Origin: Octadecabacter arcticus 238 | Lineage (GTDB): Bacteria; Pseudomonadota; Alphaproteobacteria; Rhodobacterales; Rhodobacteraceae | Reading direction: 5' to 3' | DNA: 64,000 nucleotides | NCBI RefSeq assembly: GCF_000155735.2 | Contig: NC_020908.1 | Coordinates: forward strand, 3,663,001-3,727,000 | Shown here: positions 7,929 to 32,569 of the stretch, piece by piece | How positions within the stretch are numbered: the first letter of the stretch is position 1 | Layout: every line of letters starts with the position of its first letter | Program-made: the position numbers and the translations under genes | Notes under the pieces: model-generated | Seen by the model: the letters and a program-made list of their open reading frames with translations, nothing else | What the model was told of the DNA's origin: nothing | Database searches by the model: none

Positions 7929-7971
7929 CCATTGCCCTGCAGGGCATCGCACCGCGATGTCCCGAGAGGGG
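7929..7971 (+). repeat. Hairpin micro-insertion, copy A
   Basis: Left flank CATTGCCCTGCAG, stem GGCATCGC with loop ACC and GCGATGTCC (one G-T wobble), right flank CGAGAGGGG. It lies in IS66 tnpC, antisense to the gene, between codons reading ILQA and DGYKG. Removing 40 nt rejoins them in frame at a site reading ATC|GGC. Confidence 0.85.
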
Positions 7972-8217
7972 CCTGAAGGATGCCACGTGCATTGGCCAGA
8001 TGGCTCAGGACGTGCTCTTCCTTCCAGTTGGGCGCAAACCGATAGACGGCACCGGGTGGAGATGATCCCGCCCGTCCGCCATTGGCCCTCGAACCGATGG
8101 CGGCCACATGGCGAATGGTCTTGTCACGCACATAGGCCCAGATCCGGCCTTGTTTGCCCCCTTTGCCAAGCCCCTTGTCGCGTAAGGAGCGATCCAGCAC
8201 CCGGATTGGCGTATCGT

Positions 8218-8257
8218 CCACTGCCCGGCAGGGCATGTTTACATGCCCGAGAGGGGG
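8218..8257 (+). repeat. Hairpin micro-insertion, copy B
   Basis: Left flank CACTGCCCGGCAG, perfect stem GGGCATGT / ACATGCCC with a 2-nt loop, right flank CGAGAGGGG. It is inserted in IS66 tnpC between NLLNA and DDTPIR; removing 37 nt restores the frame at GTC|GGC. Confidence 0.87.
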
Positions 8258-8333
8258 CATTCAGCAGATTGCTGCCCATGATGTCGGCCTCGATCCTCTC
8301 AATCAGCGGTGACAGGGTTTTCATGGCGCGGCC

Positions 8334-8405
8334 ACCCGGGGCTCTGCCCGTTCTCACCTCAGACTGTCCACCGGACAGTCTGTCGCTTCGCGAACCGGCG
8401 TTCAC
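8334..8405. repeat. Second-type palindromic insertion in tnpC (TCCACCGGA core)
   Basis: About 70 nt containing GGGGCTCTGCCCG, then stem AGACTGTCC / GGACAGTCT around ACC, then CGCTTCGCG. It replaces about two residues between STLVGW and RAMKTLSPL of IS66 TnpC and stays in frame, adding roughly 23 residues. The same architecture occurs at 12951-13014 and 52632-52712. Confidence 0.7.
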
Positions 8406-8528
8406 CCAACCGACAAGTGTACTCTCGGGGATGTCCGCGCCCATGCGCGCGAAGATTTCGTGTTGGCGATATAAAGGAAGGTGATCGTCAAACTTCGAGA
8501 CGAGAATGTGGGCCAGCAGGTTTGGGTC

Positions 8529-8567
8529 CCACTGCCCGGCAGGGCATGTTTACATGCCCGAGAGGGG
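8529..8567 (+). repeat. Hairpin micro-insertion, copy C
   Basis: Identical stem to copy B (GGGCATGT / ACATGCCC) with flanks CCACTGCCCGGCAG and CGAGAGGGG. It sits in IS66 tnpC between IPGSMA and DPNLLAHILV; excising 37 nt rejoins GTC|GGC in frame. Confidence 0.87.
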
Positions 8568-8710
8568 CCATGCTGCCGGGGATGGGGCGGCTTGGTGCGG
8601 GCTCCTGCAGCATCTTTTCGCAGCGGCGGCAGGACTTCTTGATGCGGGCGACCTGGATCACCTTCATCTGCGCGGCGATCATATCAAACAGTTCACTGAC
8701 ATCCTCGCCC

Positions 8711-8759
8711 ATCGCACCAGAGGTGCGTGATAAATTATGCACGCCTGTGTCGCGACACG
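8711..8759. repeat. Compound palindromic insertion in tnpC
   Basis: About 48 nt not expected in TnpC, between the GGDLR and GEDVSELF codons. It contains CGCACC-AGA-GGTGCG, then GCGTG/CACGC around an AT-rich loop, then the perfect palindrome GTGTCGCGACAC. The last motif recurs at 32804-32817. Exact ends are uncertain. Confidence 0.5.
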
Positions 8760-8852
8760 TAAATCGCCGCCGCAGTCAGGGCAGCAGGTGCCAGGATCAA
8801 GCTCAAGGCGCTCGCGCAGGGTTGCGTCAAAGACACGTGGACGGCGGCGCAG

Positions 8853-10289
8853 GGGGATGTCCCGTACGATGTTGAAAATCGGGCGAGTGGCGCTGCTTGA
8901 TTGATGGTTAGGCGACGTCCTTGATTTGGTCAAGCGTTACGGTATTGCGATGATCTAGCAAAGCTTGCTTGAGAATGGGGAGTTGCTTGTAGGCCTTTAG
9001 GCGGCGGAAGCCTTTCGCGGCTTCCAGCATACCAGCCCCTGTCCAGCGCAGCGCCATTTTTGCATCGCGCCAGCGTTTGACGTTTCGACAGACCTGTCGG
9101 ATCACGCTGTTCATAGATTCAATGATGTTGGTGCTGGCCAATGAGCGTCTCAATTCCACAGGTAGCCCCAACCTAACAACAGTTAGAATTTCGTCTAGGC
9201 CCTCAAGGATCGACTTTGAAACGTCCGGAGCCTCAAGCTCTAGTCGCTGGGCAAGATTCCGCATCAACCGCTCGGCTTTGTCGGCATCATCAAGCTCCCA
9301 TGCTTGCTTCAGCGCGCGGCGTACGGAGGCGTGCAGCTTTGGAGGAAGCCTGTCAGTTATGTTGCGGGCCTTGTGTATCTGGCATCTTTGGATGGGAATA
9401 TCGGCACCAAATGTGCGCCGAATTGCCTTGGTCAGTGCCTTAGCCCCATCTACGATGAACAAATAGCAGCCCGCTGGATCGAGCCCACGCTCTATCAGAT
9501 TGTCCAAAAGCGCCTGAACCGTCGCGGCGTTCTCGGTCGCCCCTTCAATGACGCCCAGAGGGTGCTTTTCGCCTGAAACCTCCACACCCACGGCCGCAAG
9601 CACCAACAAATGATCGTCCAAATGCAGCCCGTCGATCTGGATCGCTACAAGGTCAAGCTCCGATAGATCAGATGACATCCACTCATCCAGGCGCGCTTGG
9701 GTGAGTGCTTTGAAGCGACGCGAAACTGCTGACCTGGACAGCCCGCTCCCTGCCTTATTAGGCACCTTCGCTTCGGGCAGCCGTACAGCTCGGTCATACT
9801 TACGGGTGGAAACATTCATCAACATTAGGCTCATTGCCCATTGTTCAAGGAAGCCACCCGAGGAGGCCTCTTCCCAGCTCGGCAGGACAATCTCTTTACC
9901 GGTCACTTTATCGCGCACACGGGCGCGCTCCAGCTCAATCTTCCCACCATGGAACCCAACCTGACCTTTCGCGGTGCCCCATCTGTGGCCAGGCTTGTCA
10001 GTGCAATGCTCGTATCGGCCACCCGCCAGCGTATCTGCGTCCTCACCAAACATCTGAACCAGACTGGCGACGCCCGCCGTCAGGCAGAACTGCTCGAAGC
10101 TCTCGCCAACTTTGTCCCAGGCTGTTTCCACGAGTTGATGAACATTCGACGCGCTGGCAAGTCCAGCGCTTGCTGTGATAGTCTTCTTCATGGTGTTGCT
10201 TCCTTTTGCGATTAAACACCCAGAGCCTACGGCTCAGGGGAAGCAACGCCACCCTAAATTAAAATTTCAACATTCTTCGGGACATTCCC
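8853..10289 (-). mobile_element. IS256 family element inserted in IS66 tnpC
   Basis: A 1437-bp element with imperfect terminal inverted repeats beginning GGGGATGTCCCG on the left and, on the opposite strand, GGGAATGTCCCG on the right. It is flanked by the direct repeat CGGCGCAG (8845-8852 and 10290-10297), the 8-bp target duplication expected for this family. Rejoining across the duplication restores the TnpC frame (APTLRR then RPRVFD). Confidence 0.9.
8908..10191 (-). CDS. IS256 (mutator-type) transposase
   Basis: A 427-residue uninterrupted DDE transposase. The core begins with VAIQIDGLHLDD (first Asp near residue 190), has FIVDGAKALTKAI (second Asp near 250) with the QRCQIHKARN segment typical of mutator-type enzymes, and STNIIESMNS carrying the catalytic Glu near 365. 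Nothing appears broken, and the clean target duplication and inverted repeats suggest it is one of the younger elements in this stack. Confidence 0.9.
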   Translation of the reverse strand: MKKTITASAGLASASNVHQLVETAWDKVGESFEQFCLTAGVASLVQMFGEDADTLAGGRYEHCTDKPGHRWGTAKGQVGFHGGKIELERARVRDKVTGKEIVLPSWEEASSGGFLEQWAMSLMLMNVSTRKYDRAVRLPEAKVPNKAGSGLSRSAVSRRFKALTQARLDEWMSSDLSELDLVAIQIDGLHLDDHLLVLAAVGVEVSGEKHPLGVIEGATENAATVQALLDNLIERGLDPAGCYLFIVDGAKALTKAIRRTFGADIPIQRCQIHKARNITDRLPPKLHASVRRALKQAWELDDADKAERLMRNLAQRLELEAPDVSKSILEGLDEILTVVRLGLPVELRRSLASTNIIESMNSVIRQVCRNVKRWRDAKMALRWTGAGMLEAAKGFRRLKAYKQLPILKQALLDHRNTVTLDQIKDVA

Positions 10290-10861
10290 CGGCGCAGTGT
10301 GGGGGCAGACACCTCATCGAGTTTTGGCTCGTCCTGACCTTCATCTATGAGGTCATCGTCCCCTTCGGCGACAGCAACAAGCAAGTCTTCCAGTGCCAGC
10401 TCCAGCTGCTCGATCTCACGCTCAATCTTTTCCGATGATTTGCCAAAGGCCAGTTTCTGGAGTTTGGCGATCCGCAGACGCAGCGCCTGAACAAGTTGGT
10501 CATGGACCCGCAAACTGGCCGATATCTTGACATTCTCGGCCTGCAACGCAGTAATCATCGCCTTCAAAACGGCGGGGTCGTTGGGGAGATTTTGGACATC
10601 AACGGCCATACGCCTGATTGCTAAAAAGCAGGTATAAACGCCATATAAATAGCACTAATCAGGCGTATAATTCACCCAACTCGAGCCGGTGGTGCGCCCC
10701 AATCTGGCCTGCGCCAATCCATACCCTGCCACAACATCGCCAGTTGCGCACAGGTCAGTCGCGCCGCGCCTTCTGATGCTGTCGGCCAAGCAAAGCGGCC
10801 CCGTTCAAGCACCTTGTAGTAAAGGCAAAAACCCTGGCCATCCCAATAAAGCAGCTTGATC

Positions 10862-10900
10862 CCCCTCTCACACATGTAAACATGTGTTGCTGGGCAATGA
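10862..10900 (-). repeat. Hairpin micro-insertion, copy E
   Basis: On the - strand: TCATTGCCCAGCAA, perfect stem ACACATGT / ACATGTGT with a TT loop, then TGAGAGGGG. Compared with copy B the stem changes on both arms together. It lies in sense orientation in IS66 tnpB between GRRGD and IKLLYWDG. Confidence 0.85.
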
Positions 10901-11012
10901 ATCACCGCGTCGTCCCCGTAACGCAAACACCGCACCACTGGCAGGCTTCTGACGCAGAAGCATCTTGGGTCAATGCCGCTAAGCCAGCAATCCCCTTGCG
11001 CATATCAGTCAC

Positions 11013-11060
11013 GGTGAACCATTTCGCGCCATTGGTCCGAGCGACCATGGCGAGCGGCCA
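11013..11060. repeat. Third-type hairpin insertion, copy 1 (GGTCCGAGCGAC loop)
   Basis: Core CGCCATTGGTCCGAGCGACC then ATGGCG: a CGCCAT/ATGGCG stem around a loop shared with 25693-25735. It is embedded in extra codons between MIGPGTGV and VTDMRKG of IS66 TnpB. Confidence 0.6.
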
Positions 11061-11136
11061 GATAAACCCAAACCCCAGTGCCCGGACCCCAGTGCCCGGA
11101 CCGATCATGCGGCGACTACCGCACGGATCAGGGCCG

Positions 11137-11484
11137 TCAGCGAGACCGGGTCCATTGTGCTGTCAAAATGCAGACAACGACTATATAGCAAGCGCAACTC
11201 AACTGCGGCCGGGGTGGCGTTTCGCTGGCACGGCACTGCGGCAACGGATTCCCGCCTGCCATGGGACTATCCAATGGATAAAAAAGGGCCCCAGCGTCAG
11301 GCGACCAAAGCCCTTTCTGCTTCAGGTCATGCCGCCACGCATAAATTTGTTGCCACCTAATCTCATGACGCTGCGCTACCTGCGTCACGCTCGCCCCGCT
11401 GACACCAACCGACATGACAATCTCGAGCTTGTCGTCGTCATACCAGAAGCGTCGCCGCTCCACCCCAAGAAATTGGCCCCGCAT
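11137..11484 (-). CDS. IS66 TnpA (Orf1), helix-turn-helix protein
   Basis: Reads MRGQFLGVERRRFWYDDDKL and then VSVTQVAQRHEIRWQQIYAW-like text, the helix-turn-helix of IS66 Orf1 proteins. The frame can be extended upstream to 11529, but the ATG at 11484 (115 residues) matches the family's usual length better. It binds element ends or assists the TnpC transposase. This is the only IS66 gene here that looks intact, but it has no working partners in this copy. Confidence 0.7.
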   Translation of the reverse strand: MRGQFLGVERRRFWYDDDKLEIVMSVGVSGASVTQVAQRHEIRWQQIYAWRHDLKQKGLWSPDAGALFYPLDSPMAGGNPLPQCRASETPPRPQLSCACYIVVVCILTAQWTRSR

Positions 11485-11771
11485 CGCACACCCCACATAA
11501 GACATGTCGCTAATGACGTCATTAAACACGTGTCTTAAAACAAAGCTCCAAGCTCAGGCAGGCGAGGCCAATCGCGCGGTTCCGTTAGTTTGAGCGAATG
11601 AGCAGCTGCACACCAACAACATACAAGACCTGGAACTGGTCTGGTCTTGTCTCGGTTTAGTTTCGGTCTCTTTCGAGCAATGTTTGCTATGAAGGAGATA
11701 TGGAATGGCAACGAGATATACAGACGCGTTTCGGCGTGATGCGGTGCGCATCGCGATCAGCAGTGGCTTAA

Positions 11772-11810
11772 CCCTTGCCCGACAGTCGATACGCAGTATC
11801 GATGAGAGGG
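11772..11810 (+). repeat. Hairpin micro-insertion, copy F
   Basis: CCTTGCCCGACAG, perfect stem TCGATAC / GTATCGA with loop GCA, TGAGAGGG. Located in IS3 orfA. The related relic at 26182 has the uninterrupted text at this point, so the insertion of about 38 nt is seen by comparison. Confidence 0.83.
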
Positions 11811-11880
11811 ACGACCGCAGGTATCATCAGATTTGGGCGTTGGCCTTTCGACGCTAAACAAGTGGGTTCAGCAACATCCG

Positions 11881-11921
11881 GCGCCCGTCAGGGTATTGCG
11901 CAGCAATGTCCCGAGAGGGGG
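11881..11921 (+). repeat. Hairpin micro-insertion, copy G
   Basis: Degenerate left flank CGCCCGTCAG, stem GGGTATTGC / GCAATGTCC with loop GCA (two G-T wobbles), right flank CGAGAGGGG. It marks the junction where IS3 orfA jumps into orfB, so it may lie at a deletion end point. Confidence 0.7.
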
Positions 11922-12087
11922 CAATCACACATTCAACATCGCGCCTCATCTGCTGGATCAGGATTTCTCAGCGGATGGCCCCAACCAGAAATGGGCTGGC
12001 GACATGTCCAATATCTGGACCAGTGAAGGGTGGCTGTATCTGGCTATCATCTTTGATTTGCACTCCCGTCGCGTCATCGGATGGGCC

Positions 12088-12125
12088 CCCTCTCATCGAT
12101 ACTTTGTATCGACTGCCGGTCAGTG
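12088..12125 (-). repeat. Hairpin micro-insertion, copy H
   Basis: On the - strand: CACTGACCGGCAG, stem TCGATAC / GTATCGA with loop AAA, TGAGAGGG. The arms equal those of copy F but the loop differs. Removing 38 nt restores VIGWA-VSNRMK of IS3 OrfB. Confidence 0.85.
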
Positions 12126-12560
12126 GTCAGTAACCGCATGAAACGGGATCTGGCGATCCGGGCGTTAGATATGGCCGTCGCTTTGCGACAGCCGCCCGAA
12201 GGCTGCATTCACCATACGGATCGCGGGTCGCAATATTGTTCCAACGAGTATCAACGCCGCCTATCAAAGCACGGCTTCAAGGCTTCGATCAGTGGTAAGG
12301 GCAATTGTTACGACAATTCCATGGTTGAAACGTTCTTCAAATCCATTAAGGCTGATCTTATTTGGCGTAACCGCTGGAAAACACGCCGTCAGGCCGAGTG
12401 TGCGATCTTCCAATATATCAATGGGTTCTATAACCCGCGCCGCCGCCACTCATCACTAGGCGGCAAAAGCCCCTTGGCATTTGAGCGAAAGGCCGCATAA
12501 ATGAGTTCAGGGACCGGAACGTAAGCGTGACAAGACCAGATTGAAATCCCGCGCGATCGC

Positions 12561-12598
12561 CCCTCTCATCGAAACTGCGTCTCGACTGCCGGGCAATG
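12561..12598 (-). repeat. Hairpin micro-insertion, copy I
   Basis: On the - strand: CATTGCCCGGCAG, stem TCGAGAC / GTTTCGA with loop GCA and one G-T wobble, TGAGAGGG. Removing 38 nt restores PRDR-DGSFEP of the IS256 transposase. Confidence 0.85.
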
Positions 12599-12670
12599 GA
12601 TGGCAGTTTTGAGCCGGAGCTGATCCAGAAAGGCCAGACCCGGATCGATGGGATGGATAACAAGATCATT

Positions 12671-12711
12671 CACTGCCCGGCAGGCGATTGCACGGCAATC
12701 TGCCGAGAGGG
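12671..12711 (+). repeat. Hairpin micro-insertion, copy J
   Basis: CACTGCCCGGCAG, stem GGCGATTGC / GCAATCTGCC with loop ACG and a single bulged T, CGAGAGG. Located in the IS256 transposase between DNKII and LYAAGLS. Confidence 0.83.
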
Positions 12712-12872
12712 TGGCTTTATGCGGCGGGCCTGTCGACCCGCGACATTCGCGCGCATCTCGAAGAGGTTTACGGCCTGAATGTGTCTGCCGACCTTATCAG
12801 CCGTGTCACCGACGCTGTTCTGGCTGAGGTGTCTGACTGGCAAAACCGCGCCTTAGAACCGATGTTTCCTGT

Positions 12873-12890
12873 CCACTGCCGGGCAATGGA
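12873..12890. repeat. Collapsed hairpin element at a deletion junction, copy K
   Basis: CCACTGCCGGGCAATGGA consists of two left flanks of the element facing each other, with no variable stem. It sits exactly where several hundred bases of the IS256 transposase are missing. This fits recombination or slippage between two opposed copies. Confidence 0.6.
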
Positions 12891-12950
12891 CGGTCTCAAG
12901 GGTTTTCCTGACGCCATCAACGCAGCCTTCCCGGAGACCACAGTCCAAGC

Positions 12951-13014
12951 TGGGGCGCCGCCCGTTCAGGGCTGAATTGGTCCACTGGGCCAATTCCAGG
13001 ACGCGCCTCACCCT
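12951..13014. repeat. Second-type palindromic insertion in IS256 (TCCACTGGG core)
   Basis: About 62 nt between the codons for TTVQ and CIVHLVR. It contains GGGGCGCCGCCCG then a 10-bp stem GAATTGGTCC / GGGCCAATTC around ACT. The layout matches 8334-8405 and 52632-52712. Confidence 0.7.
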
Positions 13015-13228
13015 GCATCGTGCATCTGGTGCGCCACTCGCTGAACGTCTGCGGCTGGAAGGATCGCAAGGCTGTGGCTAAAGACCTGAAGCGAGTTTAT
13101 CAGGCCACGGATGATTTCGAGACTGAATGGGGCCAGAAACACCTCTCAATCGCACCCTCATAGCGACGGGCATGGCAGGAGATCATCCCGTTCTTTGCCT
13201 TCCCACCAGCGGTGCGGAAAATCATCTA

Positions 13229-14421
13229 TACTCCCGCGCCTGAATTGACCTGAGGTTTTCCCCTCAAATCACTTTGTATTCCTTGAGCGATATGACGCGG
13301 AAGTTGTCGGTGACGGTGTCGCGGAACTCTGGCTATTTTTCTGGCAGGGTCTTGCGGAAGAAGTCGAAAATGGCCTCTGTGAATTGGTTGAACGTTGCAT
13401 AGTGCCGATTGTGGGTGACCCATTTGTGCATAACACCCCAAAGACGCTCGATCGGGTTGAGGTGCGGGGCATATGCTGGCAAGAAATGCAACTTCACCCG
13501 ACGTTCTGGGCTGTCCAGCCATGGCTGTAGTATCTTGGCATGATGATAGCGGGCATTGTCGACAAAGACGTGGATGGCCGTCTTGGTTTGGTTGTTGCGT
13601 TCCAACTTTTCCAGCATCTGTCGGGTTGTCTGGGCATTGATCTTCTCGCCTTCCACAAAGGTGAACTGGAAAGTCTCAAGGTCAAGCGCGCCCTGAATGT
13701 TGAGCCGCTTGCGCCCTGATGTCGCCTTCAGGGCCGTCTTTTGTCCCTTGGGGAACCAACCATGGGCGGGGCGGCTCTGGTGTTCGGGGTGGACAGCGTC
13801 CGAAAAGACAACCATCTCATCTGCGGCCAACCCGTTCATCAGGGCCTCATATTTGGCAATAAACGCAGCCTGCTTGGCTTCATCGGCCTGTGCAGGCAGC
13901 AATTGTGGTTTCTTATACGCGAACCCCAGGCGGCGCATCAGCTTGGCGGCTCCCGACGTGCTGTAGTTTTGGTCGCACTCGGCTAGAACATAGGCACAGA
14001 CCTCATCGGCATTGCGGGCAGGCTGCGCGGTGAAATGGGCTCTCACCGCCTGCTCTTGCACGACGGACAAATGACCCTGACGCTGGCTGTAGTCCTTCAG
14101 ACCGAAAAACGATAGTCCCGCACCGGCAAAGGCAAATCGCCACTCCGTCAAAACTGTCGGGCCAATATCCAAAATCCGGCAAACCGTTCCGGCGTCTTCT
14201 CCTGCGTCCCAAAGAAGAAACGCGCGCGCCCGTTTCCAAACAAGGGCGTCAACTTTGCGGCGGCGGCAAAGCGCTTCAAGTGCTATGCGCTGCTCGTCGG
14301 ATAAGGAGACTGTTTTGTAATGCTTGCTCATAAACTCAAAATACAGACTGAACCGCCTTTGGCCATGCGACGAAGTGAATCGCAGGCCCAAAATCGTCAG
14401 GTCAATTCAGGCGAAGGAGTA
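13229..14421 (-). mobile_element. IS630 family element, copy 1
   Basis: 1193 bp with ends TACTCC(C/T)GCGCCTGAATTGACC and its inverted counterpart. TA duplicates lie outside (13227-13228, 14422-14423), as expected for IS630/Tc1. It interrupts the IS256 transposase at codons IIY-TTN. One of five near-identical copies in the window. Confidence 0.93.
13264..14331 (-). pseudogene. IS630 transposase, copy 1 (premature stop)
   Basis: Same protein as the intact copies (start MSKHYKTVSLSDEQRIAL), but the Trp codon after KTLPEK has become TAG at 13333, removing the last 23 residues. The catalytic residues lie upstream, so partial activity cannot be excluded, although the missing tail is conserved in the other four copies. 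Confidence 0.85.
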
Positions 14422-14677
14422 TACACCACAAATGCGATTGAAAGCTTGAACCGAGTGATCCGAAAACCCACCAAAACGCGCGGCAGCTTTCCAACAGACG
14501 ATGCCGCAACCAAGCTAATCTATCTCGCGATCCGCAGTTTCGAGAAGGCTAGCAGATGCGTCAGAGAATGGGCCGCTGCCCGCAATCAGTTCGCTATCCT
14601 ATACCCAGAACGGTTCAACAGATGACCCATCAAATCAGCATCGGCGAAGCCTCATACACAGAACTTCGGATACTCCC

Positions 14678-14990
14678 ACGAGATCGCAGATCATCCCCGC
14701 TTCACACTGGCAACTGATGTTGATGTCTACTTTTGCGACCCGCAATCACCCCTCTCGGCAGATTGCTACGCAATCGCCTGCCGGGCAATGCGTGGCAACG
14801 CAGCTCAAATGAAAATACCAACCGGCTTTTGAGGCAGTATTTGCCAAGAGGCACCGACTTATCCGTCCATTCCCAAGCAAAACTCAGCGCAATGGCAAGG
14901 CAACTCAACGAACGCCCGCGCAAGACCTTGTAATATCACTTTCCAGCAGAGAAGTTCGTTGAGTGTGTTGCGTCGATCGGTTGAGTTCGC
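14678..14990 (+). pseudogene. IS30 family transposase C-terminal fragment
   Basis: Reads [19 protein letters not shown], then hairpin copy L, then [30 protein letters not shown], and after a TAA (Glu codon changed) YHFPAEKFVECVASIG. The N-terminal helix-turn-helix half is missing, cut near the end of the IS256 relic. It is a different IS30 lineage from the copies at 31972 and 34722. Confidence 0.82.
14749..14790 (-). repeat. Hairpin micro-insertion, copy L
   Basis: On the - strand: CATTGCCCGGCAG, stem GGCGATTGC / GCAATCTGCC with loop GTA, CGAGAGGGG. The arms are the same as in copy J but the loop differs and the host is an IS30 gene. Removal restores [15 protein letters not shown]. Confidence 0.85.
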
Positions 14991-15166
14991 CGGACAAAGC
15001 TGCGATTCAATTGCACCATCCCAATTGACGTTCTTTTGCGTGTTAATACTGCAGCACGGCCAGCGGGAGGAGAGCTTAAACGGTGCCGTTAGTGGTACCC
15101 TTTTGTGCAAACACAGTTTCACTACGCTGCTGCCGTTCATCGGTCCAATCGAAATTACTTAGAGTA

Positions 15167-16359
15167 TACTCCCGCGCCTGAATTGACCTGAGGTTTTCCC
15201 CTCAAATCACTTTGTATTCCTTGAGCGATATGACGCGGAAGTTGTCGGTGACGGTGTCGCGGAACTCTGGCCATTTTTCTGGCAGGGTCTTGCGGAAGAA
15301 GTCGAAAATGGCCTCTGTGAATTGGTTGAACGTTGCATAGTGCCGATTGTGGGTGACCCATTTGTGCATAACACCCCAAAGACGCTCGATCGGGTTGAGG
15401 TGCGGGGCATATGCTGGCAAGAAATGCAACTTCACCCGACGTTCTGGGCTGTCCAGCCATGGCTGTAGTATCTTGGCATGATGATAGCGGGTATTGTCGA
15501 CAAAGACGTGGATGGCCGTCTTGGTTTGGTTGTTGCGTTCCAACTTTTCCAGCATCTGTCGGGTTGTCTGGGCATTGATCTTCTCGCCTTCCACAAAGGT
15601 GAACTGGAAAGTCTCAAGGTCAAGCGCGCCCTGAATGTTGAGCCGCTTGCGCCCTGATGTCGCCTTCAGGGCCGTCTTTTGTCCCTTGGGGAACCAACCA
15701 TGGGCGGGGCGGCTCTGGTGTTCGGGGTGGACAGCGTCCGAAAAGACAACCATCTCATCTGCGGCCAACCCGTTCATCAGGGCCTCATATTTGGCAATAA
15801 ACGCAGCCTGCTTGGCTTCATCGGCCTGTGCAGGCAGCAATTGTGGTTTCTTATACGCGAACCCCAGGCGGCGCATCAGCTTGGCGGCTCCCGACGTGCT
15901 GTAGTTTTGGTCGCACTCGGCTAGAACATAGGCACAGACCTCATCGGCATTGCGGGCAGGCTGCGCGGTGAAATGGGCTCTCACCGCCTGCTCTTGCACG
16001 ACGGACAAATGACCCTGACGCTGGCTGTAGTCCTTCAGACCGAAAAACGATAGTCCCGCACCGGCAAAGGCAAATCGCCACTCCGTCAAAACTGTCGGGC
16101 CAATATCCAAAATCCGGCAAACCGTTCCGGCGTCTTCTCCTGCGTCCAAAAGAAGAAACGCGCGCGCCCGTTTCCAAACAAGGGCGTCAACTTTGCGGCG
16201 GCGGCAAAGCGCTTCAAGTGCTATGCGCTGCTCGTCGGATAAGGAGACTGTTTTGTATTGCTTGCTCATAAACTCAAAATACAGACTGAACCGCCTTTGG
16301 CCATGCGACGAAGTGAATCGCAGGCCCAAAATCGTCAGGTCAATTCAGGCGCAGAAGTA
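15167..16359 (-). mobile_element. IS630 family element, copy 2
   Basis: 1193 bp, same ends as copy 1, flanked by TA at 15165-15166 and 16360-16361. It lies next to an unassigned 175-nt spacer (14991-15164) in which I see no gene. Confidence 0.93.
15202..16269 (-). CDS. IS630 transposase, copy 2
   Basis: 355 residues from MSKQYKTVSLSDEQR. An upstream start in the same frame would add 20 residues read from the terminal repeat, which I consider untranslated. There is an N-terminal helix-turn-helix region, then the DDE core: VVFSDAVHPEHQ, HVFVDNARYHHAK (here HVFVDNTRYHHAK) and YAPHLNPIERLW. No frame defects, so it is probably active. Confidence 0.92.
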   Translation of the reverse strand: MSKQYKTVSLSDEQRIALEALCRRRKVDALVWKRARAFLLLDAGEDAGTVCRILDIGPTVLTEWRFAFAGAGLSFFGLKDYSQRQGHLSVVQEQAVRAHFTAQPARNADEVCAYVLAECDQNYSTSGAAKLMRRLGFAYKKPQLLPAQADEAKQAAFIAKYEALMNGLAADEMVVFSDAVHPEHQSRPAHGWFPKGQKTALKATSGRKRLNIQGALDLETFQFTFVEGEKINAQTTRQMLEKLERNNQTKTAIHVFVDNTRYHHAKILQPWLDSPERRVKLHFLPAYAPHLNPIERLWGVMHKWVTHNRHYATFNQFTEAIFDFFRKTLPEKWPEFRDTVTDNFRVISLKEYKVI

Positions 16360-16380
16360 TAAATGCGAAAAAAGCTGTAT

Positions 16381-17503: not shown

Positions 17504-17520
17504 ATTCATAGCATAACGCT

Positions 17521-19748: not shown

Positions 19749-19752
19749 AGCG

Positions 19753-22333: not shown

Positions 22334-22339
22334 AATCGG

Positions 22340-24953: not shown

Positions 24954-25105
24954 TATGAAGGAGAAAGGCTTATCCCTTTTAGTCCGGTTGCCCCACATGT
25001 TGACGCGGCGCAGAATCTTGCCCTTGTGGCTTTAGAGGCGGATCGGATCAGTTTGTAACGTCTGGTGGGTTTATAGGGCGTGGCTTTTGCCGTGAACGAG
25101 GCCCT

Positions 25106-26082
25106 TCAGGCGCGCTGTTCAACAAAATCACGATATGTCGCTGGCCCGAGACCAACACCGATCCCCAGCAGCGTGTCGAAGGCGCTTCGCATGTGTCGCC
25201 GTCGGTTCCAGCGGAACACGAATTCGTCGAGATAGCGTTGTAGATGGCACTTTCTGAGGCCGTGGAAGACGCCTTTTGCCCACGTTTTTAGGTTGGAGAA
25301 CACGCGGTGGACCCAGTGGAGTATGTCGTGTGCCTTCTTGCCGCTGACGACCTTTGCCTCATGCGTGTTTGCAGGAGGATTTTCGTAACCGAGCCAGCCA
25401 TCCGTGATGATGTGAGCGCCAGGCTCTACAGCCTGACCAATGAACCCGTGCAGCGTCTTTGACGCGCCGTCGGGAATGTGTTTCATCCTGATACGGCGCG
25501 GATGTCCGTCACTTGATAACTCGACGGCACAGACGACAAACATCTTTCCAACCGGGCTGCGCCCACCCTTTGGCCGGTCCTCGGGATCATGCCGGGACCG
25601 GAACGGCATCTCTGTTTCATCGATTTCGACAAGGTCTTTCAGGGGGTTGCGGTCAGGGTTGACCATCGACCGCCGCAGCTTTTGCAAGAGGAGGTCGCCG
25701 AGAAGCGCCATCGGTCCGAGCGACGATGGCGACCCGTCTTGTAGCTGCCAAGGCCAAGTTGCGCCTGAAGTTGCAGCGCTGACATGCCGTTGGAATGGCT
25801 GGTGATGATGTGCGCGGCAAGAAACCAAATTCGCAACGGCAAATGGCTGCTGTGCATTACCGTGCCAGCCGTCACGGATGTCTGCCGTGCGCAACCGGCA
25901 CATTCCCAAGTCGCGCGATTTCGCTTTAACGGCCAGCCCTTGCAGGTGCCACAGGAAGGACAGACGAAGCCCTCAGGCCAACGATGTTCCACCAGATAAT
26001 GCGAACACGCTTCCTCATCAGAAAACCTGGCGTCGAACGCGGGGCGGGACATGGGTTTGTCGTTTTTCCATCTGGCTGGCAT
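25106..26082 (-). pseudogene. IS1595 (ISXO2-like) transposase, broken by a hairpin insertion
   Basis: The N-terminus has the zinc-ribbon typical of the family (CPSCGTCKGWPLKR and WECAGCARQTSVTAGTVMH), continuing to MSALQLQAQLGLGSYKT. A third-type hairpin (25693-25735) then shifts the frame. The rest reads LLLQKLRRSMV, VEIDETEMPFRSR (first Asp), IITDGWLGYENP (second Asp), HWVHRVFSNLKTWAKGV and the C-terminal DEFVFRWNRR. Removing the insertion would restore a protein of about 320 residues. Confidence 0.85.
25693..25735. repeat. Third-type hairpin insertion, copy 2 (GGTCCGAGCGAC loop)
   Basis: 43 nt with outer arms GGTCGCC / GGCGACC and inner stem CGCCATCG / CGATGGCG around a loop TCCGAGCGA-like segment shared with 11013-11060. 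It replaces about 8 nt between the codons for GSYKT and LLLQKLRR. Confidence 0.65.
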
Positions 26083-26181
26083 GGGAAGAACAATACCAGA
26101 ACATTCTAGATTGGCAAGCCGCTTCGCACTACATCAGGTGCCGCCGGAGCAAAGGGGATAAGCCTTTGAAGGAGATATGGA

Positions 26182-26319
26182 ATGGCAAAGCGATACACAG
26201 ACTAGTTTCGGCGTGATGCTGTGCGAATGGCGACGACCAACGGCTTAACGCGCCCGCAGCTTTCATCGGATTTAGGGGTTGGCGTCTCTACGCTGAACAA
26301 GTGGGTTCAGCGACGCTAA
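26182..26319 (+). pseudogene. IS3 OrfA remnant
   Basis: Reads MAKRYTD, stop, FRRDAVRMATTNGLTRPQLSSDLGVGVSTLNKWVQRR, stop. It is preceded by the same GAAGGAGATATGGA ribosome-binding region as the IS3 copy at 11705 and shows what that copy looked like before hairpin F. OrfB is absent. Confidence 0.75.
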
Positions 26320-26694
26320 TTCCTCGCCCTGCCCGCCTCAACAAGTATTCTTCTGATAGTGCCCGCAGGGGAGCTTGTCGCATGTGCAGAGAATTGCGCC
26401 GCTGACTTGACCGTTGCGGGCTGCCATGGTTTGGGGGCGTTTCTGGGCCTTCATTCAAGGGAGCACATCCCTGAAGGTCAACCATCTGGCAAAATGCGCC
26501 TGTCTGACGGTTGTATGACGATCAGTTTCTGACCCTCGGTTAGGCAAAACCACGATCCCTCAGATACGGCCCTTTCTGGGCCTATCAAAACTCAAAAAAG
26601 CAATGCCGCGATTGCGGCGTTGTCGGGCTTTTGCGGGTGCAGCCTTCGATGGCATGTGCCCGATAAAATACGATAAACTAAGGAGAGACGCGAT
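26320..26694. other. Non-coding region upstream of the betaine importer
   Basis: About 375 nt with no credible gene. It holds a 9-bp hairpin at 26601-26622 (CAATGCCGC / GCGGCGTTG) and the expected promoter of the importer; the start at 26695 is preceded by AAGGAGAG. Confidence 0.5.
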
Positions 26695-27666
26695 ATGAAG
26701 AGAATTATTATTGGTGCCGCATTCGCAGCACTCGCAGCCCCAACGGCCGCCTTGGCGCAGGATCAATGTGGCGAAGTCACAATCACCCAGATGAACTGGG
26801 ATTCAGCCGCCATTGTAACGGCCGTCTCAAAATTCTTGATGGAACAGGGGTATGGCTGCGACGTAACGGTGGTGCCGTCCGATACCACACCGGCGATGAC
26901 ATCCCTGTCTGAAAACAACGAGCCCGACATCGTGACCGAACTATGGGTTAATTCTGCGGGCGAGGCTTACACAAAGCTGCGCGAAGACGGCATGATCGAA
27001 GAGTTGGGCAGCGTGCTTGACCCCGGCGGTGTCGAGGGCTGGTGGCTACCGACCTATCTGATCGAGGCGCATCCAGAACTTGCGACAATCGACGGCATTA
27101 TGGCCAATCCTGAACTGGTCGGTGGCATGTTCAACAACTGCCCAGACGGTTGGGGCTGCCGCATCGTCAACGACAACCTGATCCGCGCGCTCGACCTTGA
27201 GGACAGCGGGATCGAGGTCTTTAATCACGGGTCCGGCGAAACACTGGCAACGTCAATGGCAGCGGCCTACCAAAGCGAAGAACCTTGGTTCGGCTACTAT
27301 TGGGGTCCAACGACGCCGCTTGGCATGTTTGACATGACAAGCATTGATCTTGGCGAATACGACGAAGCCGTTCATGCGGCCAACCAGAACGCCGACGCGC
27401 CAGATCCGGGCGTATCGGCATTTCCGGCAGCACCCGTGCTGACGATCGTGACCAAGGACTTCATGGAAACCCGTCCCGACGTCGCAGAACTGATGGGCAA
27501 TGTGACCTTCAAGACGGACACGATGAGCCAGCTTCTGGCATGGAAAGAAGACAACAACGCTTCCAACGAGGAAGCGGCTGTGTATTTCCTGAGCAACAAT
27601 CCTGACGAATGGAGCGGCTGGATCAACGATGCCGCGCGCGAAAAGCTGGCCACGCTGCTGCAATAA
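26695..27666 (+). CDS. Glycine betaine/proline-type periplasmic binding protein (ProX-like)
   Basis: 323 residues with a Sec signal peptide (1-22, ending ALAQ). The mature protein fits OpuAC/ProX type II receptors, with the ITQMNWDSAAIVTAVSKFLM opening and aromatic-rich WWLPTYL and YYWGPTTPLGMFDM stretches that form a cation-pi box for quaternary amines. Cys residues near 133 and 139 (NCPDGWGC) may form a disulfide. It supplies the permease and ATPase encoded next; choline, betaine or a related osmolyte is the likely ligand. Confidence 0.87.
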   Translation: MKRIIIGAAFAALAAPTAALAQDQCGEVTITQMNWDSAAIVTAVSKFLMEQGYGCDVTVVPSDTTPAMTSLSENNEPDIVTELWVNSAGEAYTKLREDGMIEELGSVLDPGGVEGWWLPTYLIEAHPELATIDGIMANPELVGGMFNNCPDGWGCRIVNDNLIRALDLEDSGIEVFNHGSGETLATSMAAAYQSEEPWFGYYWGPTTPLGMFDMTSIDLGEYDEAVHAANQNADAPDPGVSAFPAAPVLTIVTKDFMETRPDVAELMGNVTFKTDTMSQLLAWKEDNNASNEEAAVYFLSNNPDEWSGWINDAAREKLATLLQ

Positions 27667-27675
27667 ACTCGATCA

Positions 27676-27699
27676 GGGCGGTGCTTTTGGCGCCGCCCC
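27676..27699 (+). terminator. Hairpin after the ProX-like gene
   Basis: GGGCGGTGC / GCGCCGCCC stem (one T-G wobble) with a TTTTG loop 10 nt after the stop. No T run follows, so it more likely protects the mRNA end or causes partial termination before the permease gene. Confidence 0.5.
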
Positions 27700-27841
27700 T
27701 TGATTGCTGCAAACGCCCGCCAAGGGCGTGCCATCTACCAAGGCAGACCAACAAACGGGGCCCAGGTCAAATGATCCGGCCCTGTCATTGAATTAGAGAA
27801 ATAAAAAAAGGGCCGCACTATTATGCCCGGATGAGGGACAC

Positions 27842-28879
27842 ATGGCGACTTACGATTTCATTTTCGACGGGCTGGGACTGCGCAATTGGTGCGGCACCAG
27901 CGGTGAAAACAGCGGTGACATGACGTCTATGGCGCAGCTTCTGGCGGAAACTTCAGGCGACGACATTGTCGTGACGAGCTGGGAAACACCGTTTCCATCC
28001 ATGGACGCGCTCCATGAGGCCTGCCCGTCATTTCCACAATCGCGCGAACTGACGAGCGGTTTGGAGGAAGGTTTTTTGGCAATCAAAGACGGCCTGAAAG
28101 TGGTCGTCGACCCGCTGACCCAACCGCTTAGCTGGGCGCTGAACGAAGCATTGTGGGTAATGCAGGCCGTGCCTTGGTTCATCATGATCCCGCTGCTGAT
28201 GCTGGTTGCTTGGGTGGTAAGCCGCCAGTTGCAACTGGTCGCACTGGTCGCGGTCTGTTTCGGGTTCCTTGGCTTCGTTGACTATTATTCCTACACCATG
28301 CAGACGCTCGCAATCATCTTTGTGTGCGCGCTGACTTGTGTTGTATTGGGCATCCCCATCGGGATTGCCATGGCACGTAGTGACCGCGTGCAGCGCATCA
28401 TGATACCCATTCTGGATATGCTTCAGACCCTCCCGCCCTTCGTTTATCTGATCCCCTTGATCTTCCTGTTCTCAGTGACGGAACCGAAACTCTACGGTAT
28501 CGCGATCATCCTTTATGCGATTGTGCCGGTGGTGCGCCTGACCGATCTGGGTATCAGACTTGTGGATCCTGACGTGACCGAAGCCGCAGACGCCTTTGGC
28601 ATGACCAAACGGCAAAAACTGCTGAACGTGCAAATCCCGCTCGCGCTGCCCAACATCATGGCAGGCGTGAACCAAACCATCATGATGAGCCTTGCGATGG
28701 TCGTGATTGCATCGCTGGTGTCGGCCCCCGGTTTGGGTGTGTTGGTGCTGCGCGGCATCCGCTCATTAGAGCTTGGCGTCGGTTTGCTGTCCGGTCTGGG
28801 GATCGTTCTTCTCGCAGTCATTCTCGACCGCGTGACCAAAGCTGCCCTCGCCCGCATCAATGTAAGCCAATCGAAATAG
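27842..28879 (+). CDS. Glycine betaine/proline-type ABC permease (ProW-like)
   Basis: 345 residues: a soluble N-terminal extension of about 100 residues, then about six membrane segments with PIGIAMARSDRVQRIM and the EAADAFGMTKRQKL coupling loop. It starts 175 nt after the receptor gene and ends 12 nt before the ATPase start. It forms the membrane channel of the betaine-type importer. Confidence 0.9.
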   Translation: MATYDFIFDGLGLRNWCGTSGENSGDMTSMAQLLAETSGDDIVVTSWETPFPSMDALHEACPSFPQSRELTSGLEEGFLAIKDGLKVVVDPLTQPLSWALNEALWVMQAVPWFIMIPLLMLVAWVVSRQLQLVALVAVCFGFLGFVDYYSYTMQTLAIIFVCALTCVVLGIPIGIAMARSDRVQRIMIPILDMLQTLPPFVYLIPLIFLFSVTEPKLYGIAIILYAIVPVVRLTDLGIRLVDPDVTEAADAFGMTKRQKLLNVQIPLALPNIMAGVNQTIMMSLAMVVIASLVSAPGLGVLVLRGIRSLELGVGLLSGLGIVLLAVILDRVTKAALARINVSQSK

Positions 28880-28891
28880 AAGGTGACGGAT

Positions 28892-29959
28892 ATGAACGAT
28901 ACAGACATAAAAATTTCGATCCGCAATCTCTATAAGATTTTCGGAAACGATCCAGATACGGCCCTGCAACTTGTGAAAGACGGCATGAGCAAGACTGAGC
29001 TGCTGGAAAAGCACAATCAGGTGCTGGGCCTGAACGACATCAATGTCGATGTCCGCGCCGGAAAAACGACGGTGATCATGGGGCTGTCGGGGTCGGGCAA
29101 ATCGACGCTGATCCGCCACCTTAATCGCCTGATTGAACCGACAGCGGGCGAGGTTTTGGTCGCAGGCGAAAATATCCTGCAATACAATGAAAAGCAGTTG
29201 CGCGATTTGCGGCAACACGAAATGTCGATGGTGTTCCAGAAATTCGCACTGCTGCCGCACCGGACCGTATTGCAAAACGCCGGTCTCGCACCTTTCATCG
29301 ACGGCCAGAAAGAGCGCAAATATGCCGATGAGGCCCGCAAATGGCTTGACCGTGTCGGGCTGCAGGGGCAAAGCGAACAATATCCACACCAGCTATCTGG
29401 CGGAATGCAGCAGCGGGTCGGCATTGCCCGCGCGCTGACCAGCAATTCCGACATCATGCTGATGGACGAGGCGTTCTCTGCTCTTGACCCGTTGATCCGC
29501 ACCGACATGCAAAACCTGTTGAACGAATTGCAGGCAGAATTGCAAAAGACCGTGGTGTTTATTACCCACGATCTGGACGAGGCGCTGAAACTGGCGGATC
29601 ATCTGGTCATCCTCAAAGACGGTTTTGTTGTCCAACAAGGCGAACCGCAGCACATATTACTCAATCCGGCGGACCCCTACATCGAAGATTTCGTGAGCGA
29701 TATCAACCGCGCACGTGTGCTTAGGGTCCGTTCCGTTATGGTTAAGACACCAAACGCGTCGGGCGAACAGGCGGGCGAGATCGATCATAACGATACGCTG
29801 GAGTCCGTGATTGCAAAATCCGAAGGTGACACCGCCCTGTGTTACCGGGTGATGAAGAACGGCACGCCAGTTGGTGAGCTGGACATGCGCAAACTGGTAC
29901 GCGCACTGGTCCCTTCAGAACAATCAGACGACCCCGAAAGTGCCCGTCTGAGCGGCTGA
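28892..29959 (+). CDS. Glycine betaine/proline-type ABC ATP-binding protein (ProV-like)
   Basis: 355 residues from ATG at 28892, preceded by AGAAGGTGACGGAT; a GTG three codons earlier is in frame but lies within the ribosome-binding site. The unusually long N-terminal ProV segment before the ATPase fold is present (IFGNDPDTALQLVKDGMSKT). Then Walker A GLSGSGKST, signature LSGGMQQRVGIARAL, Walker B IMLMDEAFSALDP and ITHDLDEA. The C-terminal part is a short CBS-like regulatory region. Last gene of the importer. Confidence 0.92.
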   Translation: MNDTDIKISIRNLYKIFGNDPDTALQLVKDGMSKTELLEKHNQVLGLNDINVDVRAGKTTVIMGLSGSGKSTLIRHLNRLIEPTAGEVLVAGENILQYNEKQLRDLRQHEMSMVFQKFALLPHRTVLQNAGLAPFIDGQKERKYADEARKWLDRVGLQGQSEQYPHQLSGGMQQRVGIARALTSNSDIMLMDEAFSALDPLIRTDMQNLLNELQAELQKTVVFITHDLDEALKLADHLVILKDGFVVQQGEPQHILLNPADPYIEDFVSDINRARVLRVRSVMVKTPNASGEQAGEIDHNDTLESVIAKSEGDTALCYRVMKNGTPVGELDMRKLVRALVPSEQSDDPESARLSG

Positions 29960-30387
29960 TTGGACAACCCGCTTAAGGTGGCCCTAACGATTAATGGCGC
30001 GCGATCAGCGCGTCATATCCAATCGCCCGTATGCCACCTTGGCAGTCCTAGCAGGCCGAAGAACCATCTCGCGTCGCAGGTAAACTGGACGCCAACACTG
30101 TGGGGCAAAGCAACCAACAATCTAGGGGCGGTGAGGACCGAGTATCAACACACGTTTCTGCGTGAATTGGCACGCGCCCTCGCCCCAACCTTAACTCCCG
30201 CCCGACGTCCGCAAGCTCTTGTTGGTGCTCCAAGCGTTCCAGGCTTAGCGTGTCAGAGTGATTTGCCCGACGGGACCGATTGAACCGACCGTAAAAGACA
30301 CTGCAGTGCCACGGCTCTACTTTTGTTCGTATTCGATCCATTCTTTTGGAACCATCACACCTGCGTCCCGGAACGTGTCAACGACTT
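29960..30387. other. Non-coding spacer
   Basis: About 430 nt between the betaine importer and an IS3 element. I see no gene, RNA or clear repeat; short open frames lack family resemblance or ribosome-binding sites. Confidence 0.5.
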
Positions 30388-30408
30388 TGAGACAGTGGCT
30401 TTTGGACT

Positions 30409-31422
30409 TTAGGCTTGGGTTTCTTCGGTTGGTTTTGGTGGGTTGATCCAGACGGCGGTCGGGATTTGAGGCGGTTTTGGTGGTTTGTGTACGAAGCGTT
30501 CGGGCGTGGCGAGGAATGCCGCGTCTAGTGTTGCTTGTCGCGCGGTGTAGATTTCTTGGGCCTGCCCAAAATGGATTTGGTCGGGCGTCATCAGACCAAT
30601 CCCGGCGTTATGATGGTCTTGGTTATACCATGCAAAGAACCTGCGGCAGAATGCGCGAGCCTGCTCGATGGTTTCAAAGTTCTTGGGGAACTCTGGCTGA
30701 TATTTCAGTGTTTTGAAGTGGGCTTCGGAGAACGGGTTGTCGTTTGAGGTGTGGGGCCGACTGTGGGACTTGAGCACACCAAGATCAACCAGCATCAGGG
30801 CTGTCGTCTTTGCCTTCATGGGCCCACCGCGATCTGCATGCAATGTCAGCTGATCGCGTGGAACCTCGTGTTTTTCCATCGCGTCGATGAACAGCTCTTT
30901 GAACTGGCTGGCGCTCTCCGCGTGCTCGACGCGCCAGCCAACAACGCGGCGGCTGAAGATGTCGAGGATGACATAGAGATAGAAGTAGGACCATTTCACC
31001 GGGCCCCTCAGCTTGGTGATGTCCCAAGACCAGACCTGATTGGGGGCTTCAGCTAGAAGTTCAGGCTTTTGATAGACGGGATGTGTGCGCTGTCGGCGGC
31101 GTTCGCCAACTTCGCCCTGCGCGGCCAATATCCGATACATCGTGCGGATTGAACACAGATAGGTGCCTTCATCCAGCAAGGTGGCAAAGACCTCTGTGGG
31201 CGTCTGATCCGCAAAGCGGGGTTCGCGCAGGTGGTGCAATACCTGGTCTCTTTCCCTTTCCGGCAGAGCCCGCGAAGACGCTGCGCGCGGTGGGCGTGTG
31301 CGTGGTGGTGCCGTCAGCGCCGCACGCTGTCGAAGAACGCTCGCGCGCGATAATGATAGCGCGGCGCAGACAGCCGAGGTCAAGCCGCTGCCGGTGGGCA
31401 ATGCAATCGCGACGGCCATCAT
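30409..31422 (-). CDS. IS3 OrfB (integrase-core transposase)
   Basis: 337 residues with an HTH_21-type segment and the rve core: [12 protein letters not shown] (first Asp), LHADRGGPM (second Asp), [16 protein letters not shown] (Glu), and a [12 protein letters not shown]-terminal motif. Its start overlaps the orfA stop by 4 bp, typical of translationally coupled or frameshift-fused IS3 genes. Intact. Confidence 0.9.
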
Positions 31423-31901
31423 GATTTGCCGCTGCGCTCTTGCGTCTGCTCCATCTCGTCCAGAAGTCCCGCCACTTTTTTTTGGATGGCAATGATGGCT
31501 TCCGCCTGATCCAGACGGCGCCGCAAGGCTGTCACCTCACGGTTGGCCTTAGCCAGCTCAGCTTGCAATGGATTGGCAGGTGCCTTTTGTGGGCCACGGC
31601 GCATTGGCTGCAATGCACCCAATGTGCCGGCCGCCCGCGCACGGCGCCAATCGGTCAGTGCAGAGGAATAAAGCCCCTCCCGCCGTAGAATGGCGGAAAC
31701 CCCGCCAGTGTCTGCCACTTGGTCCGTCTCATCCAGAATGCGCAGTTTGTATTTGGCTGTGAAGTTGCGTCGCTTCGGGATGCTCGTCAGTTCCGCTGTG
31801 GGAGCCAACGGCGCATTAACAACGCGGGGAGGCGACGTCGGGGCCAAAACGGCTCCAGATCCAGCATCTGGCGAAAGTGGTGATTGTGAAGGCATAACCA
31901 T
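31419..31901 (-). CDS. IS3 OrfA (DNA-binding leucine-zipper protein)
   Basis: 160 residues: a proline-rich N-terminus, then a helix-turn-helix ([35 protein letters not shown]) and a C-terminal coiled coil ([20 protein letters not shown]) through which OrfA and the OrfAB fusion dimerise. Intact. Confidence 0.85.
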
Positions 31902-31971
31902 GGGTTCGTTCTCCTACGCCCTCAAGTGTAAACTTTAGCCAGTCAATTGTCTCACGCTTATTGGCACGGAG

Positions 31972-32569
31972 GGGGCAGTGCTATGGTCCCGGAATAATTG
32001 CGCATTATCAATCGCCCTGACGAGATCGAGGCGCGATTGGTGCCAGGCCACTGGGAGGGTGATCTGATCAAGGGCGCGTTCAATCGCTCGTCAGTGGGCA
32101 CCTTGGTCGAGCGCAAGACACGCTTTGTCATTCTTTGCAAAATGGACGGCAATGGGGCCGAGGCCGCGCTCGACAGCTTCACCCGCCAGATGGGACTACT
32201 ACCCGCTGCTTTGCGCAAGAGCATGACCTATGACCGTGGCTCCGACCCTCTCATGGTTTGCGAGCAAACCACTGCCAGGCAGTGGATGGCCTGCCACCCC
32301 GAACTGGCCAGACGGTTGAAGATCGATATCTGGTTCTGCGATCCGCATGCGCCGTGGCAGCGTGGCAGCAACGAGAACACCAACGGACTGCTGCGTCAGT
32401 ACATGCCCAAAGGAACTGACCTGAACGGTGCAAGCCAAACATGGCTGAACGACGTTGCAAACCTGATGAACAACCGTCCGAGAAAAACCCTCGGATGGAG
32501 AACACCCGCTGAAGCCATGGCCGACGAAATAGCGGCTTTCAAATCAACCGTTGCACTTGATGTTTGAAT
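31972..32569 (+). pseudogene. IS30 transposase, 5'-truncated and interrupted by hairpin copy M
   Basis: Homology to the intact copy at 34722 begins at GCAGTGCTATGGTCCCGGAA; a TCA to TAA change gives a stop just after, then LRIINRPDEIEARLVPGHWEGD follows. A 13-residue insertion encoded by copy M lies between DRGS and MACHPELARRL without breaking the frame. The C-terminal half with SNENTNGLLRQYMPKG is otherwise complete. The first half is missing, cut beside the IS3 element. The right end at about 32569 lies inside a dienelactone hydrolase gene. Confidence 0.87.
32246..32285 (-). repeat. Hairpin micro-insertion, copy M
   Basis: On the - strand: CACTGCCTGGCAG, perfect 8-bp stem TGGTTTGC / GCAAACCA with loop TC, TGAGAGGG. 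The intact paralogue (34722-35747) has a single base here, so the 39-nt net insertion is shown by direct comparison within the window. Confidence 0.92.

Follow-up and report, generated by a model that had tools for sequence, protein, structure and literature searches.

The window analysed here is the whole 64,000-nt stretch of Octadecabacter arcticus 238 from position 3,663,001 to 3,727,000 of contig NC_020908.1, and its transposase genes are interrupted by a family of very short hairpin units. Each unit consists of the left flank CAYTGCCCGGCAG, a hairpin of 7–10 base pairs, and the right flank GAGAGGG. A scan with relaxed flanks and a pairing requirement recovered 11 full copies, to which direct inspection adds one 13-nt remnant, whereas the reversed window, used as a control, gave scattered matches only, each with 5–6 flank mismatches. 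The exact pattern TGCCCGGCAGN{10,30}GAGAGGG occurs five times in the window against a mean of 0.00 over 100 shuffles, and a scan of the window with Rfam 15 gave no match at the gathering threshold. A sequence-only reading of this DNA had described twelve copies, 37–41 nt long, with constant flanks; direct inspection bears out the twelve places, with coordinates right to about 2 bases, and the fixed ends, but the twelfth copy (12873) is a remnant without hairpin or right flank, the length range is 37–43 nt, and the base after GAGAGGG belongs to the target.

The first 15 kb of the window form a hot spot with 10 full copies (window coordinates). A 41-nt copy with a bulged T in its stem lies on the plus strand at 7930..7970 in the target CCATC|G, and its empty homologue, locus L194, has a junction one base off. 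Two plus-strand copies of 37 nt, at 8219..8255 (stem GGGCATGT/ACATGCCC; target CGTC|G) and 8530..8566, carry an identical hairpin at different sites 311 bp apart, and L194 is an empty homologue for the second as well. A minus-strand copy of 37 nt follows at 10863..10899 (stem ACACATGT/ACATGTGT). As the sequence-only reading had noticed, the same arms can enclose different loops: this is so for 11773..11810 (plus strand, 38 nt, stem TCGATAC/GTATCGA, with one empty homologue found) and 12088..12125 (minus strand, 38 nt, stem TCGATAC, with several), and likewise for 12671..12711 (plus strand, 41 nt, stem GGCGATTGC/GCAATC-T-GCC, at a site shared with the Transposase_mut host L037) and 14750..14790 (minus strand, 41 nt). 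The hot spot is completed by 11879..11919 (plus strand, 41 nt, left flank decayed), 12561..12598 (minus strand, 38 nt, stem TCGAGAC/GTTTCGA), and the remnant at 12876..12888 (minus strand, 13 nt), which retains CATTGCCCGGCAG only. Because a second genomic copy of the host region (L183/L293, 90% identical) has the same remnant, the loss of hairpin and right flank probably preceded the copying of the host. The eleventh full copy, at 32246..32284 (minus strand, 39 nt, stem TGGTTTGC/GCAAACCA), sits in a host whose genomic copies elsewhere, 91–99% identical, are empty.

Boundaries, Insertion, and Target

Counted with CAY and GAGAGGG, the unit measures 37–43 nt in 179 of 193 distinct sites, most commonly 41, and the remaining 14 sites, of 34–36 and 44–52 nt, include decayed and chance entries. 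The base 3' of GAGAGGG comes from the target and in the clear cases can be G, A, or T. The alignment of occupied and empty sites that the sequence-only reading had proposed defines these ends and reveals insertion with neither duplication nor loss of target bases, as one IS5-type element illustrates: the empty form GGTGGCGTC|GATTGAG is found in L179 and in the window near 44700, and several occupied copies in the O. arcticus genome read GGTGGCGTC, then 38 nt, then GATTGAG. Exact-junction geometry is seen at 53 of the 65 sites that have a close empty relative, and pairs of element and empty site with flanks less than 88% identical (n=159) are exact in 123 cases, displaced by +1 in 20, by −1 in 5, and otherwise in 11. 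Near-identical occupied and empty host copies coexist in one genome, which points to recent events. The unit has inserted many times, cleanly, and mostly into transposon genes of marine bacteria.

Over the 193 distinct sites the target reads C-C-A/G-T-C|G, with C at 74% in position −1, G at 71% in position +1, and about 3.2 bits in total, so that the preferred insertion point lies between the C and G of C(A/G)TC|G; no fold or inverted repeat distinguishes the target sites. Fewer lengths than expected are a multiple of three (40 of 193, p=2e-4; 34 of 179 within 37–43 nt), and the units therefore usually break the host frame.

Stem Covariation and Strand Asymmetry

The arms vary widely in sequence and stay paired. 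Since every stem row was pre-selected by a pairing filter, the proportion of paired cells is in part a product of that selection; the paired changes are not. Among the 41-mers, represented by 44 of 60 distinct sequences in a choice that favours pairing because repeated hairpins and several decayed or odd ones were left out, 96.2% of stem cells are paired, 8 of the 9 pairs show changes in both arms, and the covariation score was reached by 0 of 500 shuffles (one measure by 1 of 500). All 27 of the 37-mers taken together have 97.7% of cells paired, with a covariation score again reached by 0 of 500 shuffles. The longer-stem class carries an unpaired T three pairs from the stem base.

The mismatches that the stems tolerate are unequal. 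With an even-handed filter, which covered 107 of 139 hairpins, G·T pairs number 58 and A·C pairs 10; with the basal pair removed the counts are 25 and 11 over 109 hairpins (p=0.03). An earlier count of 99 to 10 was set aside because its filter favoured G·T. Equal numbers would be expected if the hairpin worked only as double-stranded DNA, and we infer that the written strand is the one that folds as a single strand.

Abundance and Distribution

The O. arcticus 238 genome (5.48 Mb) contains 44 exact matches to the pattern and none to the reversed pattern; 13 regularly spaced 20-kb stretches of it (260 kb) hold five copies with a reversed control of 0; and the collected loci together hold 182 unit copies with 144 distinct hairpins, again with a reversed control of 0. 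The concern, raised with the first description, that random segments would match equally often is therefore answered, since control sequence gives no comparable matches. Across the Rhodobacteraceae the exact pattern is present in 93 of 295 genomes, the reversed pattern giving 0 or 1 match per genome; five of the 93 (G028, G030, G040, G134, and G229) are chance cases in which the sole match is a place without a hairpin. Class-wide, 13 of 385 genomes contain the pattern: four belong to the Rhodobacteraceae, G487 and G409 have hairpins, six have a conserved unpaired stretch, and one has no hairpin. The unpaired stretch of these six alphaproteobacterial genomes (G349, G359, G389, G523, G625, and G634) resembles TGCCCGGCAGCTTGCGCCACAGCACCGGCGAGAGGG and is probably a coding motif that matches by chance.

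Among the matches listed, carriers include Ruegeria, Roseobacter, Sagittula, and Sulfitobacter, and, outside the order, Cohaesibacter marisflavi and Vreelandella neptunia; the contig-wide listing of carriers also contains chance matches from unrelated phyla. Viral stretches with matches number 70, about 13 of them with a hairpin that is convincing by eye.

Hosts

The hosts are chiefly insertion sequences of many families, entered in either orientation. An open frame adjoins 188 sites, 50 of which fall in one cluster, whose representative matches the IS3-type integrase core (rve). The representatives of the other large clusters match IS5-type, IS110, IS66, mutator (IS256-type), and IS30-type genes, with one that matches a DNA methylase and one without a match; some of these insertion-sequence names are what we take the Pfam families to imply. 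In O. arcticus all 23 Pfam families found beside copies (83 fragments; families counted) are transposase, integrase, or helix-turn-helix families, compared with 94 Pfam families at 60 random control positions, where transposases make up 4 of the 25 listed. The claim that the hairpins occur only in transposase genes holds for the most part but is too strong: outside O. arcticus, copies have also entered a phage DNA methylase or lie next to a small number of other genes.

Both orientations to the host frame occur in the IS3-type cluster, at 26 to 24. Read through the 38-nt unit, the first frame of the IS5-type host reaches a stop 15 codons on; several copies broken in this way exist in the O. 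arcticus genome, and the element has presumably been moved in trans. The presence of units in many transposase genes may influence insertion-sequence activity in marine Rhodobacteraceae.

In three phage contigs (L211, L238, and L249) a unit sits at one shared position of a cytosine methylase gene, and each contig has a different hairpin there. The methylase frame stays open across the unit in L211 and L249 but does not in L238, and other phage methylases align across the place without a unit.

Repeated Occupation of the Same Sites

In 18 site families, relatives 67–88% alike are occupied at the same site, and every family has at least two hairpins, some of which differ by a single base; the arms are unrelated, as judged by eye, in at least nine of the 18. 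At one IS5-type site an identical 38-mer is present in L164 and in L001, L002, L004, and L012, whose flanks are only 67–70% like those of L164, and the same site holds an unrelated hairpin in L150 and is empty in L165 and L179–L182. An identical unit in distant hosts, with another stem or none in nearer ones, fits independent insertion and fits inheritance or drift poorly.

When relatives with some unit nearby are compared pair by pair, the pairs being non-independent, 51 have the same site occupied and 128 have it empty. By informal comparison, reoccupation seems much more frequent than a 3-bit target would predict, and target choice may have a further component beyond the 3-bit preference. 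Stem replacement by gene conversion was considered and rejected: differences between the IS5-type hosts lie about 3 nt from the unit on both sides, and a tract of about 44 bp would be needed. At shared sites the left flank is better conserved than the right in 35 against 6 pairs but, when site families are counted, in 12 against 4 (p=0.08), a difference that is not relied on; an ungapped version of the comparison put right flanks out of register.

Proposed Mechanism and Its Alternatives

The reading that we favour, to which we assign a probability of roughly 0.6, is that these hairpins form a family of REP-like, non-autonomous mobile units of 37–43 nt that move as folded single-stranded DNA through an enzyme acting in trans. 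The written strand would fold as a single strand and be cut at both ends, and the excised unit would then be joined into single-stranded target DNA by the trans-acting enzyme, by analogy with IS200/IS605 elements and REP hairpins. The enzyme would recognise both constant flanks and, in the stem, nothing but its shape, with GCAG directly 5' of the hairpin in the place of the GTAG of REPs; with its shape alone being read, the stem would be free to drift by paired changes. Copies would survive mostly in dispensable DNA, that is, in insertion sequences, and these would carry the unit between replicons and species. The sequence-only reading had likewise proposed a very small non-autonomous mobile palindrome with a free stem, and the exact ends, the empty sites, the unrelated hosts, and the covarying arms all speak for it. 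A bolder version, which we put forward only tentatively and consider rather unlikely as a whole, is that a single-hairpin unit of 37–43 nt, recognised by flanks and stem shape, moved as single-stranded DNA by an enzyme that is neither Y1 nor Y2, and in practice specialised to parasitise insertion sequences throughout a bacterial family, is the smallest precisely bounded mobile DNA yet seen.

Among the alternatives, the one that survives best is that of an ordinary REP family moved by a REP-associated tyrosine transposase (RAYT) or an IS200-type Y1 transposase of the same genomes. The shape, the size, and the strand asymmetry of the unit are REP-like, and genomes with a Y1_Tnp match (31 of 295) are modestly enriched among carriers, 16 of the 31 carrying the unit as against 77 of the other 264 (odds ratio 2.6, p=0.014). 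O. arcticus itself has 14 Y1 matches, 13 of them scoring identically. Yet no Y1_Tnp match was found in 11 of the 15 genomes richest in copies, four having one; of 217 copies, 195 have GCAG before the hairpin and one has GTAG; and the copies lie chiefly inside genes. The IS200-type element present in 13 copies was rejected as the mover, since the five copies examined (L326–L330) have the ends TTTACTTTCC... and ...CGTTCAGT, unrelated to those of the unit. Ten Y1 loci were scanned, and at two of them an exact-type copy lies within about 0.6 kb, one being beyond the ends of its IS200-type element. We therefore regard this explanation as improbable, if clearly ahead of those that follow, and the RAYT that the sequence-only reading had suggested as a mover finds no support in these results.

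Other candidates were pursued in the same genomes. Y2_Tnp is present in 7 of the 15 highest-copy genomes and in 1 of 15 element-free genomes, and a Y2/IS91 enzyme was set aside as the mover. Copy number is, however, an imperfect sign of activity, as multiplication of the host insertion sequences inflates the count of their passengers, and these tests thus weaken both enzymes without excluding them. A search for a longer, autonomous form sharing the left end covered 75 of the 76 TGCCCGGCAG places in the genome (all but 3484171) and found none; the TGCCCGGCAG places outside exact units (32, of which 31 were examined) are decayed units, chance matches, and four units interrupted by an IS110-type element. 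Guide–target complementarity in the style of IS608 or REPs was rejected as well: GGCA fails, and GCAG predicts C|G or C|T, which the few variants disobey.

A site-specific recombinase, whether tyrosine, serine, or integron-like, that inserts a circular form would account for sites that are precise and recurrent, and it has a precedent in integrons, whose single-stranded sites are read by structure. Against this, no core is repeated at both junctions, and the constant flanks show no integron-like inverted boxes; we give this explanation little credence.

Somewhat less probable still is that an IS110-type element moves the unit with its guide RNA. Four copies, each with its own hairpin, do have an IS110-type sequence immediately behind YGAG (contig C1 near 364800, 1276107, 3066564, and 3455250; L316–L319), with PF02371 and PF01548 checked in one of the four, L318. 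This pattern makes the unit a landing pad rather than cargo, however, and is confined to four places.

Two further explanations are very improbable. An ancestral origin of the hairpins, as slowly changing parts of the transposase families, would agree with occupation of the same site in relatives of only 67–88% identity, but homologous transposase genes without the hairpin are common and empty at the same base, each of which would have to be a precise loss, the hosts come from unrelated families, and the identical 38-mer of hosts 67–88% alike is missing from closer relatives, which are empty or hold an unrelated stem. An RNA-level element, such as a mini-intron or a translational bypass that lets the host gene be read, would also suit the G·T pairing, and is countered by the stop past the IS5-type unit and by the mixed orientation to the host frame, which, as the sequence-only reading had argued, speaks strongly against a sense-strand RNA role.

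Several observations weigh against transposition of a single strand by a trans-acting enzyme. No moving enzyme was found, and 6 of the 15 highest-copy genomes lack both a Y1_Tnp and a Y2_Tnp match; no excision product was seen, the data being genome sequences alone. Four copies have A for G at position 13, and, contrary to the guide idea, three of these have C at target position −1. For the 37-mers, 36 and 98 of 500 shuffles came up to the observed value in two of the five covariation measures, and the G·T excess lies mostly at the basal pair. The clustered sites as a whole are 53 sense and 79 antisense (p=0.03), with some uncertainty in the choice of frame. Finally, the O. arcticus genome shows no orientation bias between replichores (18 to 18), in a count that covers 36 of 44 copies, takes dnaA at the start of contig C1, relies on a weak GC skew, and leaves out six copies at 2.3–2.6 Mb, which may lie on either side of the terminus, as well as two on contig C3.

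With its ends, its target, and dozens of occupied and empty pairs plain, the mobility of the bare hairpin is directly testable, and a family with a free stem is a natural experiment on what a single-strand recombinase reads.

Relation to Known Systems

Searches of an open-access library, which leaves out most subscription papers, turned up no earlier description of the unit. The closest relatives are REP and REPIN sequences with their RAYT/TnpA_REP enzymes (PMC8266576, PMC3116915, PMC3733652), which share with the unit a palindrome of 20–40 nt, a constant 5' tetranucleotide, in some cases a bulged stem, and probably one active strand. PMC8266576 gives GTAG as the constant tetranucleotide 5' of the REP hairpin and presents REP hairpins as thought to be mobile by a poorly understood mechanism. 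The unit differs from GTAG REPs in its GCAG, from REPs generally in its constant flanks of 13 and 7 nt around a variable stem and its exact monomeric insertion into genes, from RAYT-served REPs in that a Y1 gene was not found in most of the richest carriers, and from extragenic REPs in lying chiefly within genes, as judged from the Pfam families beside copies and from empty sites homologous to transposase frames. Neighbouring unit copies are seen in both orientations. As described in PMC3733652, CGTC-tagged REPs resemble the unit in being chiefly alphaproteobacterial, in having no dedicated transposase known, and in lying partly within genes; the unit, unlike them, has no CGTC, TGTC, or CCTC tag and no CCA tail, its ends being CAYTGCCCGGCAG and GAGAGGG.

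IS200/IS605 elements such as IS608 (PMC5934647) likewise carry a subterminal hairpin on a single strand and insert precisely, without duplication, on the 3' side of a short target. The target preference of the unit is looser than the TTAC of IS608, and the unit has one hairpin in place of two ends, no coding DNA, many carriers in which no Y1 gene was found, and a misfit to the IS608 guide rule. Rickettsia palindromic elements, as described in PMC3733652, are also palindromes inserted inside alphaproteobacterial genes; the unit differs in that its lengths do not favour the frame, the phage methylases L211 and L249 being exceptions to its frame-breaking, and in that its hosts are chiefly transposase genes. 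It is unlike a miniature inverted-repeat transposable element served by a DDE transposase, having no terminal inverted repeats and no target duplication, and unlike an integron attC site, whose inverted R and L boxes are absent from the constant flanks. As it fails several defining tests of the REP and IS200-type families, the unit is related to their hairpins and is not a member of them.

A last likeness to REPs concerns the IS110-type insertions. IS110 elements land in REPs of other bacteria, according to PMC1525189, and the unit likewise serves as a landing site for this family; as the insertion point is the same in four different hairpins, the target choice of the IS110-type element cannot depend on the stem. 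Beside one of these insertions, at C1:3066543-3066573 (L289), two left flanks stand in tandem 21 bp apart as a partial duplication of the unit.

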